Assembly (NCBI GenBank): GCA_025358945.1
Contig: JANYHS010000058.1
Location: forward strand, 1-34,518
Reading direction: 5' to 3'
Source: Acidobacteriota bacterium
GTDB lineage: Bacteria; Acidobacteriota; Vicinamibacteria; Vicinamibacterales; CAVVIG01
Length of the DNA: 34,518 bases
The notes beneath the pieces are model-generated. The model had not been told where the DNA came from. It saw nothing but the letters and a program-made list of their open reading frames with translations, and ran no database searches. Positions 30,081 to 34,462 of the stretch are shown here, one piece after another. Every line of letters starts with the position of its first letter. Position 1 is the first letter of the stretch. A program made the translations under genes and the position numbers.

Positions 30081-31278
30081 TTACGATGGCGGCGGCAACG
30101 GCCCGAACAATGACTCGACGGCGAGAGCCGTGCTGAGCAGTTGTCTATCTGCACCCTCAGGCGCATCCAACTCCATCCCGACCGGCAGTCCCGTGACTGT
30201 CTGTCCGACCGGGAGACTGAGACCTGGAATGCCTGCCAAGGCAATCGGCCGCGTGTCGTGCAGATGGGCGCCAAACGTCGGCACCCTCTTCCCATTTGAC
30301 TCGACCTCGACATCGTCGCCGGTCGGGCGCGCTGGCAGGATGGTCGTGGGGAACGCGATCACGGCGACGTGGTTCGTGCGGAAGTACTCGCGATAGGCAG
30401 ACTGAAGCGCCGGACGGGATTGCCTCATCGCCGCGTCGTAGGCCGCTCGCGTCGGCGCCTGTGGGCCGATGACCGACGTCTCATAGAGCGGTTTGACGTC
30501 CGGGCGTGCGATCTGCGCGACCAACTCCTGAACGGTGAGCGTGAGGCGGCTCTCGCGCAGATACCGAGCGAGATCGTGGAGCATTTCGTAGTACGTGATC
30601 GGCCCCGTGGCAGCGACGTAGAGCTTCTCGAGATTCGGCATGTCGGCTTCAATCAGCACGCAGCCGGCATCACGAAGCGTCGTCAAAGCCTTTTCGATGA
30701 CCGGTCCGAGGCTGGCGCCCAGCCCGTCGAAGAAATATCCCCGCGGGATACCGATGCGCAGGCCTTTCAGCGCCGCTGGCTGAAGCGGCGTGCGCTGTCC
30801 AGTGATGATCGAGTCGAGCAGGACGAGATCGCGCACGGAGCGGGCCATCGGTTCGACGGTATCCCTCGTATGGGAAAACGGGACGATGCCTCTCTGCGGA
30901 TAGCGACCCATCGTGGGTCGCCACTTCCTCCGCTGCCGCCACCGGCAATCAGCGCAGAGTTGTACGGGTTGTGAACGGCTCCGAACGCCGAATTATTGCT
31001 GGCGATGCCCACGGCGAGTTCGTGCCTGTTGGTCTTGCCCAACAGGATGGCGCCGGCCGAAAACAGCGACGCGGCGACGGGCGCATCAGCGCGCGGACGA
31101 TGGTCGCGAAGCGAAGGCGTGCCCGCAGTTGTCGGTGCGTGTGCCGTGTCGATGTTGTCCTTCACCAGAATCGGCAAGCCGTGAAGGGTGCCGACTGTGT
31201 GGGAGGCGCGTCGCTTATCTGCCGCTCGAGCAGCGCCGTCGCGTACTTCTCTACCGACAGATCGCCTGCATCTATCGG
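30081..31278 (-). pseudogene. Amidase-signature gene broken by at least two deletions
   Basis: Three pieces of one amidase-family protein lie in different frames. The N-terminal piece begins directly after the pruA stop and has no start codon: DAGDLSVEKYATALLERQIS. Near 31220 it jumps to ADKRRASHTVGTLHGLPILV followed by KDNIDTAHAPTTAGT, which contains the catalytic lysine. That frame continues to SAFGAVHNPYNSALIAGGGS and fails near 30920. Homology resumes in another frame with GRYPQRGIVPFSHTRDTVEP and runs to 30081. The segment normally carrying the nucleophilic serine (GTDTGGS-like) is deleted. The 276-residue 3' open frame is long but cannot be an active amidase. The full-length ancestor probably hydrolysed small amides. 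Confidence 0.85.
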
Positions 31279-32922
31279 CTATTCCTCACTCATGAACGGG
31301 TAGCGGAAGTCCGTCGGCGGGTTGAAGTTCTCCTTCACCGTCCGCGCGCTGACCCAGCGGGTGAGGTTCAGCTTCGATCCTGCTTTGTCGTTCGTACCAG
31401 ACGCCCGCGCGCCGCCGAACGGCTGCTGACCGACGACCGCGCCGGTCGGCTTGTCGTTCACGTAGAAATTTCCAGCCGAGTGCCGCAGCGCTGACATTGC
31501 GTGGACGATCGCGCGGCGATCCTGCGCAAACACGGCGCCCGTCAGCGCGTACGGCGATGTTGAATCCACGATCTTCAGCGTCTCGTCCCACTTCGCATCG
31601 TCATACACGTACGCAGTGAGGACCGGTCCGAAGATTTCTTCGCACAGCAGTTTGTAGGCCGGGTCGGTCGTTTCGACGAGTGTCGGATGGACGAAGTAGC
31701 CTTTGCTGCCGTCCACCTTGCCGCCGGCGAGGATCTTCGCGTTGCCGCGGCCGTGCTCGATGTACTGACTGATCTTGTCGAACGACTTCTTGTCGATCAC
31801 CGCGCCCATGAAATTGCGGAAGTCGCACGGATCGCCAACCTTGATCTCGTTGATCATCGCGATCGCGCGATCGCGCACACCGGCCCAGATCGACTTCGGC
31901 ACGTAGACGCGGCTTGCCGCGGAGCACTTCTGTCCCTGGTATTCGAACGCGCCACGCACCATCGCCACCGCGAGCGCCTCGACGTCCGCTGACGGGTGCG
32001 CGATGATGAAGTCCTTCCCGCCGGTCTCGCCGACGATACGCGGGTAAGACCGGTAGGAGGACATCGACGCGCCGATCGTCTTCCACATGCCGTTGAAGAC
32101 TTCGGTGCTGCCCGTAAAGTGCACGCCACCGAGATCGCGGTGCGAGAGCAGGATCTTCGAGATCATCGCGGAGTCGCCAGCCACGAAATTGATCACGCCA
32201 GGCGGCATGCCGGCCGCTTCGTACATCTTCATCAGGTAGTAGGCGGAGTACATCGCGGTTGCCGCCGGTTTCCAGATCACCGTGTTGCCCATCAGCGCCG
32301 GCGCGGTCGGCAGGTTGCCGCCGATCGACGTGAAATTGAACGGCGTGACGGCGTAGACGAATCCTTCGAGGCCGCGGTACTCGAGCTGATTCCACATCGT
32401 GTGGTCGCTGAGCGGTTGTTCGTCGAGCAGTTCCTGCGCATAGTGCGCGTTGAAGCGCCAGAAGTCGACGAGCTCGGCGGCGGCGTCAACCTCCGCCTGG
32501 AACGCGGTCTTCGACTGGCCGAGAATCGTTGCGGCGTTAATCGTGTCGCGCCAGGTCGTGGTCAGCAGTTCCGCAGCCTTGAGGATCACGGCGGCGCGAT
32601 CTTCGAACGCCCATCCGGACCACTCGGCGCGAGCGGCGGCGGCGGCGGCGATCGCGGCCACCACGTCCTTCTCACTGGCCTTGTGATAGGCGCCGACGAC
32701 GTGCTGGTGATCGTGCGGCATCACGGACTTGGCGGTGTCGCCCGTCCGGATCTCTTTGCCGCCGATGAACATCGGCATGTCGACGGTCTCGGCGGCCATC
32801 GTCTTCAGGCGCGCCTTGAGCGATGCGCGCTCGGGCGAGCCCGGCGCGTAGGACTTGATGGGTTCGTTGACGGGTGGCGGCACGCGGCGGCGCCCGTTGA
32901 AGACCGCGGAGGATGGGGACAT
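31279..32922 (-). CDS. pruA: Delta-1-pyrroline-5-carboxylate dehydrogenase
   Basis: A 547-residue aldehyde dehydrogenase of the P5CDH class. It oxidises L-glutamate gamma-semialdehyde to glutamate with NAD+, the second step of proline degradation. Signatures: PVNEPIKSYAPGSPERASLK at the N-terminus, YAVTPFNFTSIGGNLPTAPA, VHFTGSTEVF for the NAD site, catalytic Glu in VGETGGKDF, catalytic Cys in YQGQKCSAASR, and QQPFGGARASGTNDKAGS near the end. ATG 32922 is preferred over GTG 32928 because the duplicated copy at 34308 also starts at this ATG. No proline dehydrogenase gene is adjacent. It follows an acyltransferase gene by 58 bp and runs straight into the amidase remnant. Confidence 0.93.
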   Translation of the reverse strand: MSPSSAVFNGRRRVPPPVNEPIKSYAPGSPERASLKARLKTMAAETVDMPMFIGGKEIRTGDTAKSVMPHDHQHVVGAYHKASEKDVVAAIAAAAAARAEWSGWAFEDRAAVILKAAELLTTTWRDTINAATILGQSKTAFQAEVDAAAELVDFWRFNAHYAQELLDEQPLSDHTMWNQLEYRGLEGFVYAVTPFNFTSIGGNLPTAPALMGNTVIWKPAATAMYSAYYLMKMYEAAGMPPGVINFVAGDSAMISKILLSHRDLGGVHFTGSTEVFNGMWKTIGASMSSYRSYPRIVGETGGKDFIIAHPSADVEALAVAMVRGAFEYQGQKCSAASRVYVPKSIWAGVRDRAIAMINEIKVGDPCDFRNFMGAVIDKKSFDKISQYIEHGRGNAKILAGGKVDGSKGYFVHPTLVETTDPAYKLLCEEIFGPVLTAYVYDDAKWDETLKIVDSTSPYALTGAVFAQDRRAIVHAMSALRHSAGNFYVNDKPTGAVVGQQPFGGARASGTNDKAGSKLNLTRWVSARTVKENFNPPTDFRYPFMSEE

Positions 32923-32980
32923 ATCCACTCATGATAGCGTTTCTGGCTATGAGAATCGCGGATCGGCAGATGACGAGGGC

Positions 32981-34117
32981 CTAATACGAGAGTCGATGCG
33001 CGGCGCGGACGAACGGCCGCTCGAAGAAGCGCCACGAGAGCGACGCCACCACCACCGTGACGAACAGGGCGATCAACGCACCGGTCCCGAACGGCAGATC
33101 GTATGGCCGCGGTAGCGCCTTCAGCAGGTAGGCGTTCACCAGGATCAGGGCGGGCATGTGAATCAGGTACACGCCGTAGGCGATGCCCCCGAGGCGTCGA
33201 AGAGGGCCGAACCTCAGCGCCCGGCTGAACGGCGATCCCCGTTGCGTGACGGCAAGCAGCAGCGCCACGGCGTAAAACGAGGCCAGCACGGTGTAGCCCC
33301 AGATCGACATCTGAGGAGACCCGATCATCCATCCGCGCCGTGACATGTACCCGATCAGCGCGGCGAGCCCGAACGCCATCACCCACAGCACGTCGGATCG
33401 GCGCTTCACGATCGTCCGTGCCTGTTCGTCGCGCACGACGATGGCCGCGAGGACGCCTAGCATCAGCGCATCCATCCGGCACGGCGTCAGCACGTACACG
33501 GGCCAGAACAAGTCGGGGAATGACAGGAACAGCATGGTTCGCACAGCGATCGCGACGGCAATCGACGCCACGCAGATCCAGATCAGCGCGCGATTCGACG
33601 CCGCGCGAATCACCAGCGGGAGCGTCAGGTAAAACTGCTCCTCGACGGCCAACGACCACGTGAGCGAGATGAAGCCGGCGCCCAGAGAGTCGTACCAGGC
33701 CATCCAGAAATTCTGAAGGAAGAGCAGATAGGGATACGGCGGGAGGCGGTTCGCGACCAGCGGGCTCGCGTAGTCCGCGTACCCCGCGCGCGTGATTGCA
33801 ATCAGAAGCGCGTAGGCTCCCAGCAGCAGCGAGTAGAGCGGAATGATGCGGGCGAAGCGGCGGCCGTAAAACGTCCCCAATAACCGGGGAGACTGGCGCG
33901 CGTCGATCAGAATGCCGCCGATCAGGAAACCTGACAGCACGAAAAACAGATCGACGCCGCTCCACAGCGGACGAAGCGCCCAGAATTTCAGGGAGACGTG
34001 TGGATCGAGGGAGACGTAATGCCAGATCAGAACCAGCAGAATGGCGACGCCGCGCAGGCCGTCCAGTTCCAGAACGCGGCCGTCGAGTGGCCGTGGCGCC
34101 TCGACCCTGTCTGGCAT
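32981..34117 (-). CDS. Acyltransferase-3 family membrane O-acyltransferase
   Basis: A 378-residue integral membrane protein of the OafA/YrhL-type acyltransferase family with about 10 hydrophobic helices. Conserved blocks are LDGLRGVAILLVLIWHY with the catalytic-type histidine, DLFFVLSGFLIGGIL, FYGRRFARIIPLY, SLAVEEQFYL and YGVYLIHMPAL. Members transfer acyl groups to sugars of lipopolysaccharide, peptidoglycan or secreted products. The target here is unknown. ATG 34117 lies 3 bp after the stop of the chimeric pruA fragment, so translation may be coupled to it. This gene separates the intact pruA from its duplicated 5' fragment, which suggests insertion or rearrangement in this region. Confidence 0.9.
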   Translation of the reverse strand: MPDRVEAPRPLDGRVLELDGLRGVAILLVLIWHYVSLDPHVSLKFWALRPLWSGVDLFFVLSGFLIGGILIDARQSPRLLGTFYGRRFARIIPLYSLLLGAYALLIAITRAGYADYASPLVANRLPPYPYLLFLQNFWMAWYDSLGAGFISLTWSLAVEEQFYLTLPLVIRAASNRALIWICVASIAVAIAVRTMLFLSFPDLFWPVYVLTPCRMDALMLGVLAAIVVRDEQARTIVKRRSDVLWVMAFGLAALIGYMSRRGWMIGSPQMSIWGYTVLASFYAVALLLAVTQRGSPFSRALRFGPLRRLGGIAYGVYLIHMPALILVNAYLLKALPRPYDLPFGTGALIALFVTVVVASLSWRFFERPFVRAAHRLSY

Positions 34118-34120
34118 TCC

Positions 34121-34308
34121 TTACCGTCCGAGATCCAGCAACCGCTCGAGTTCGTCGGGATGTATCGCGCGCGTGAGCGCGTCCACGGTCTCGGCCGCCA
34201 TCATTGTCAGGCGCGCTCGGGTGATCCCGGCGCGTAGGACATGATCGGTTCGTTGACAGGGGGCGGTACGCGGCGGCACGCGTTGAAGACGGCGGAGGAT
34301 GAAGACAT
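34121..34308 (-). pseudogene. Duplicated 5' fragment of pruA fused to another gene's 3' end
   Basis: From ATG 34308 the minus strand reads MSSSSAVFNACRRVPPPVNE then PIMSYAPGSPERA, nearly the N-terminus of PruA. By eye the DNA is about 85-90% identical to 32780-32925. A 16-bp deletion between two GCGCG copies (junction near 34212) then shifts the frame. Homology continues as MAAETVD and breaks exactly after GAC. The frame then reads ALTRAIHPDELERLLDLGR and stops at 34121. The same ALTRA-HPDELERLL coding sequence recurs at 34373-34421. The fragment cannot be functional as a dehydrogenase. Confidence 0.85.
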
Positions 34309-34421
34309 ATCGTTCAATGATACCCAAAGGATCTCAGGATTTGAGAATCTTAGGATCTTAGGATTTTCAACCCAGCAGCCGCTCCAGTTCGTCGGGGTGC
34401 ATCGCGCGCGTGAGCGCGTCC
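34136..34421. repeat. Pair of 49-bp direct repeats
   Basis: 34136-34184 and 34373-34421 differ at about 4 of 49 positions. Both encode, on the minus strand, DALTRA(I/M)HPDELERLL. They are 237 bp apart and bracket the pruA-derived fragment, pointing to a segmental duplication. Confidence 0.88.
34329..34366. repeat. GGATCTTA-type octamer tandem array
   Basis: Units read GGATCTCA, GGATTTGA, GAATCTTA, GGATCTTA, GGATTTT. The array ends against the stop codon of the small ORF at 34367-34462 and lies just upstream of the pruA fragment start. It is another member of the short-period intergenic repeats in this window. Confidence 0.75.
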
Positions 34422-34462
34422 TTGCGGTCGAAGAGCCCTGCGTCACCGAGCGGAAACCCCAT
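34367..34462 (-). CDS. Short ORF, probably a gene remnant (31 residues)
   Basis: MGFPLGDAGLFDRKDALTRA followed by MHPDELERLLG, with AGGAAC before ATG 34462. The last 17 residues are duplicated at 34136-34184. The peptide has no recognised domain. It may be a genuine micro-ORF, or the 3' end of a larger gene whose 5' part lies in another frame near the window edge (a 22-codon frame at 34443-34511 overlaps it). I cannot decide between these. Confidence 0.3.
   Translation of the reverse strand: MGFPLGDAGLFDRKDALTRAMHPDELERLLG

Follow-up and report, generated by a model that had tools for sequence, protein, structure and literature searches.

Short-junction duplications have been described chiefly as fresh events that arose under selection, and such duplications are expected to be unstable. 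The closest described examples are the nusG'-'sigH and rplK'-'sigH chimeras of S. aureus, in which a short-junction duplication joined the downstream gene's start to the upstream gene's tail (PMC3486894). A related process is tandem-duplication promoter capture, by which silent or horizontally acquired genes are activated (PMC11111574 and work cited there), and a further point of reference is the family of PilT-type ATPases of type IV pilus systems (PF00437, T2SSE). We analysed the whole 34,518 nt stretch of Acidobacteriota DNA (hereafter the window), in which positions 34121-34421 probably bear the scar of an old tandem duplication that had a short junction and spanned the boundary from a pilT-like gene to pruA. 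As in the S. aureus chimeras, there is a fusion in frame before the later deletion, a short junction, an intact downstream gene that has been kept, and a start codon copied together with its (here putative) promoter. Those chimeras, however, were caught fresh in a selection; their product was functional, and in one clone the junction carried an 8 bp repeat. In the window, by contrast, the event is old and its product decayed, the junction measures 3-4 bp, and there is no sign of selection. On this reading the locus preserves, in an uncultured lineage, a short-junction duplication whose parents, junction and later deletion are all readable.

The second pruA start lies on the minus strand at 34322-34181, is about 86% identical with the true one and carries a single 16 bp deletion. 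A mechanical repeat search of the window returned it as two repeats, 34211-34322 against 32825-32936 (85% over 112 nt) and 34181-34216 against 32779-32814 (86% over 36 nt), and BLAST against the organism's own genome gave E = 2.3e-30 for this copy. Its parent is the intact pruA-type aldehyde dehydrogenase gene at 31279-32922 on the minus strand (PF00171, E 1.3e-101), which is 54-89% identical in relatives and whose true start is probably the ATG at 32922 rather than an upstream GTG. The truncated copy (34181-34308, minus strand) corresponds to pruA codons 1-48. When it was aligned with pruA, the only gap was one of 16 nt flanked on both sides by GCGCGC repeats, in agreement with an earlier note on this DNA, which had described a frame-shifting 16 bp deletion; owing to this deletion, the frame from the copied ATG at 34308 now meets a TGA after 33 codons (34308-34207). 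The similarity extends upstream of the start codon, where a -10-like box, TATCAT, and 8 nt precede the copied ATG (34309-34322, minus strand) in the same layout as at the true pruA (32936-32923).

The sequence joined to this copied start is itself repeated. Positions 34135-34184 match 34372-34421 with 92% identity over 50 nt at a spacing of 237 (mechanical repeat search), and BLAST against the own genome gave E = 4e-13 for the tail copy. These two own-genome E values exclude chance as the source of the copies. Both the repeat search and BLAST therefore bear out the claim of the earlier note that a duplicated pruA 5' end is joined, after GAC, to a sequence duplicated 237 bp away. The more upstream of the two tails, at 34370-34440 on the minus strand, encodes a pilT-like C-terminal part (GLFDRKDALTRAMHPDELERLLG plus stop) and is preceded by sequence without a match that extends as far as the contig end.

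The earlier note had assigned the tail to the 3' end of another gene, and the parent can now be named as a PilT-type ATPase gene by way of two relatives. The window tail matches the 3' end of pilT with 85% identity over 72 bp in G010 (C76:34021-34092) and 83% over 65 bp in G017; the full G010 gene ends GSFTLEESLTELVKQGLVDRKDAMTRAGHPEELERLLG, contains a T2SSE domain (PF00437) and is in the syntenic position. By these matches, ALTRA-HPDELERLL is the C-terminal segment of a PilT-type ATPase. In both relatives (contigs C76 of G010 and C34 of G017), an aldehyde dehydrogenase gene, a dinB-family gene, pilT and then pruA lie on one strand. The loci of Acidobacteria bacterium NC_groundwater_900 (L145, taken as the same contig as that of G017) and Terriglobia bacterium SRVP_36 (L146) have dinB, pilT, a divergent nitrilase gene and pruA. 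The nitrilase gene adjoining pruA in the congener G001 and at L145 and L146 has no orthologue-level match in the own genome (best 40%). The pruA locus of the own genome differs from these relatives, which have a PilT-type ATPase gene upstream of pruA, in that C-terminal pilT remnants alone were seen there. Another join is marked by the last 78 bp of the contig (34441-34518), ahead of the pilT tail; at E < 0.001 this piece matched nothing in the own genome but itself, and G001, G010 and G017 gave no convincing match.

The two repeat families overlap at GGAC (34181-34184, minus strand), a microhomology of 3-4 bp present in both the copied pruA start and the copied pilT tail, the join falling directly after GAC (34183-34181, minus strand). 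The overlap is counted as 3-4 bp because pruA now reads GTCGAC at this site, where the pilT gene of G010 reads AAGGAC. The pruA and pilT frames agree across the join, so the fusion frame was open before the 16 bp deletion. Since the deletion, 33 codons run to 34207, a restart at 34204 opens a small frame of 27 codons (MMAAETVD-ALTRAIHPDELERLLDLGR; 34121-34204, minus strand) made of pruA codons, pilT tail and a new end, and its TAA, with the stop at 34121, lies 3 nt before the start of an acyltransferase gene at 34117. Read along the minus strand from the contig end, the order is the pilT-like tail (to 34370), an octamer stretch, the pruA copy, the join, the second tail (stop 34121), the acyltransferase gene and pruA.

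We infer that tandem duplication was the mechanism. A segment of about 253 bp, from the GAC near the pilT end through the intergenic region to the GAC at pruA codon 48, would have been copied in tandem by illegitimate recombination at the 3-4 bp overlap, yielding a pruA'-'pilT fusion frame upstream of a complete pruA. Given the order in relatives, with pilT before pruA and both on one strand, a tandem duplication with its ends in the pilT tail and at pruA codon 48 yields exactly this product, pruA'-'pilT followed by intact pruA. The locus has copies in direct orientation, the start of the downstream gene joined to the tail of the upstream gene, and a junction at microhomology (GGAC) with no long repeats; the -10-like box and leader copied along with the pruA start support the same mechanism. 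Of the flanks of the duplicated unit, pruA is intact and the upstream pilT is interrupted by matchless sequence and the contig end. The spare copy would afterwards have lost 16 bp between the GCGCGC repeats and then decayed, and the acyltransferase gene would have come to sit between the fusion scrap and the true pruA. Against this stands the position of the acyltransferase gene, which, had it lain inside the duplicated unit, would be expected ahead of the pruA copy as well; between that copy and the contig end, just the pilT tail and matchless sequence are seen. The acyltransferase gene may have arrived before or after the duplication, given that the window stops at the contig end and that contig C285 (below) carries a second pilT tail with an acyltransferase gene.

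This gene, acylT1 (32981-34117, minus strand), belongs to the Acyl_transf_3 family (PF01757, E 1.7e-28). In a search of 60 genomes (59 relatives and the own genome), the sole match below 1e-40 in a relative was in G050, at 37% identity; no close copy was present in 80 named pruA loci, and no relatives were found when the gene was used as a query against GTDB genome contigs or IMG/VR. Because a close copy is absent from 59 of the 60 genomes and from the 80 named loci, the gene is probably lineage-specific and was acquired in this lineage, as the earlier note had allowed in suggesting an insertion. That note had further proposed duplication with microhomology joining, to which the GGAC overlap and the same-strand order of pilT before pruA in relatives give support, and had placed the acyltransferase gene between fragment and true pruA, where it lies; its description is correct in all essentials.

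The own genome holds one more copy, acylT2 on contig C285, with 79% nucleotide identity to acylT1 (dS 0.60, dN 0.16). Upstream of it are a dinB-family gene and a truncated pilT tail, shortened by about 28 codons between two CTCGAG sites, and the only own-genome copy of the aldehyde dehydrogenase/dinB block is also on C285. This arrangement of dinB-family gene, truncated tail and acylT2 shows that more than one rearrangement occurred, which counts against the tandem-duplication account. The first 59 bases of C285 equal window 32970-33028 exactly; such an overlap is what a branch of the assembly graph leaves, and C285 is therefore probably the upstream neighbour of the contig carrying the window, or a strain variant of it. 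At their other end, the paralogues agree in 59 of the 60 bases surrounding the start. Aligned over their length (C285 1-1172, locus L005, against window 32970-34150), the two thus have near-identical ends of 59 bp and about 60 bp and 79% identity overall; the 59 bp end looks like an assembly overlap and the other end does not. The near-identical start end points to recombination at the ends of the paralogues.

We estimated the age of the copy from substitutions. For the codons that pruA and its copy share, dS is 0.44 and dN 0.07, and full-length pruA of the own genome differs from that of the congener G001 by dS 0.50 and dN 0.065, although the first 48 pruA codons alone give a dS of about 0.25-0.29 for the latter pair. 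The dS of the copy is close to that between own genome and congener, which places the event at roughly the age of within-genus divergence. The copied start groups with the pruA of G000 and G001 against other genera (bootstrap 94), the order within the group not being separated. When the changes were polarised by G001 in a hand count from the sequences, about 14 fell on the copy, including residues conserved in relatives, and 3 on pruA. Nonsynonymous changes made up 9 of 19 (a count that includes two in the first codon past the join), fewer than expected for free drift (p = 0.013). The history of the copy may therefore have been partly under selection: part of the deficit comes from the constrained pruA side, and otherwise part of the copy's own history was constrained.

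A constrained phase of this kind would be explained by a donor model, the strongest competitor of the tandem duplication yet an unlikely one. Here a relative's pilT tail, acyltransferase gene and pruA start would have entered by homology-facilitated illegitimate recombination, one end by homologous exchange inside pruA and the other by joining at microhomology, and the recipient's own pruA start would have been left as scrap. One step would then explain why the pilT tail of the scrap lacks the acyltransferase gene and that of pruA has it. A dS between the copies as large as that between congeners over full pruA (0.44 and 0.50), a low dN as expected of a gene start functional for part of its history, and the near-identical ends of the two acyltransferase copies around a diverged middle all fit this route, and the microhomologous end that it involves is present. 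However, a donor with the order pilT, acyltransferase, pruA was found neither in the 60 relatives searched nor in the 80 named pruA loci, and the true pruA does not look foreign, having the shorter branch.

A joining of different strains' sequences by the assembler is highly improbable. The draft genome is in 372 contigs and is apparently metagenome-derived like the named relatives, and the 59 bp exact overlap of C285 with the window is the mark of a graph branch, but an assembly word is far longer than the 3-4 bp at the join or the 6 bp repeats at the deletion. Nor are the copies one sequence assembled twice, since they differ by 8-15%, and simple duplication by the assembler was rejected on that ground. 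That the small frame is a functional gene is the least credible of all, for although it is open over 27 codons and ends 3 nt before the acyltransferase gene, the frames tested have no Pfam match, the frame is broken relative to both parents, and relatives that share the gene order but have the fragment gene intact, which by the earlier note would have implied a functional small protein, were looked for and not found, so that a functional small protein, having no conserved counterpart in any relative examined, was rejected.

The tandem duplication may have had a consequence for the acyltransferase gene, a possible but doubtful extension of the favoured account. The duplication would have placed a second pruA promoter and start before acylT1, selection for expression would keep the scrap, and translation would pass along the small frames (TGA-CA-ATG, 34209-34202, and TAA-GGA-ATG, 34123-34115) into acylT1. 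The copied box and start, with the two relic mini-frames, might on this tentative account form a transcription and translation leader tying acyltransferase expression to proline catabolism. The exact retention of TATCAT-8 nt-ATG in both copies favours it, although survival of a 14 bp stretch is weak evidence alone; so do the absence of a terminator-like site between scrap and acylT1 and the persistence of the scrap for about as long as within-genus divergence. Upstream of pruA in most of the relatives listed (L007-L030), a TANNNT-like box stands 6-8 nt before the ATG, which is a further point in its favour and suggests that pruA transcripts are leaderless or nearly leaderless in the family of these relatives. 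On the other side, there is no recognisable -35, acylT2 on C285 is without such a leader, and a standard sigma-70 scan of the scrap region returned no full promoter match. Promoter capture by tandem duplication has been shown experimentally elsewhere, and, as there, a native promoter would have been copied, without long homology, to a site ahead of a lineage-specific gene (PMC11111574); activation of the downstream gene would be a prediction in the present case. If the copied promoter does drive the acyltransferase gene, the locus would exemplify in nature a mechanism investigated chiefly in the laboratory; without promoter activity, it is a readable yet ordinary genomic scar of a rearrangement type already known in bacteria.

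Elsewhere in the window, an amidase-like gene (PF01425; 30081-31177, minus strand) is apparently split over two frames near 30911, either as a pseudogene or through a sequence error. The octamer repeat (34328-34364, minus strand), which separates the pilT stop from the copied pruA start, has 4.6 copies reading ATCCTAAG/ATTCTCAA/ATCCTGAG and is one of the tandem arrays of ATYCTVAR units that are dispersed in these genomes. Three-unit ATYCTVAR matches numbered 360 in G011, 34 in G005, 10 in G001 and 5 in the own genome (reversed control, 0), and most of the octamer arrays at loci L115-L144 lay outside long frames, often within about 10 bp of a frame end.
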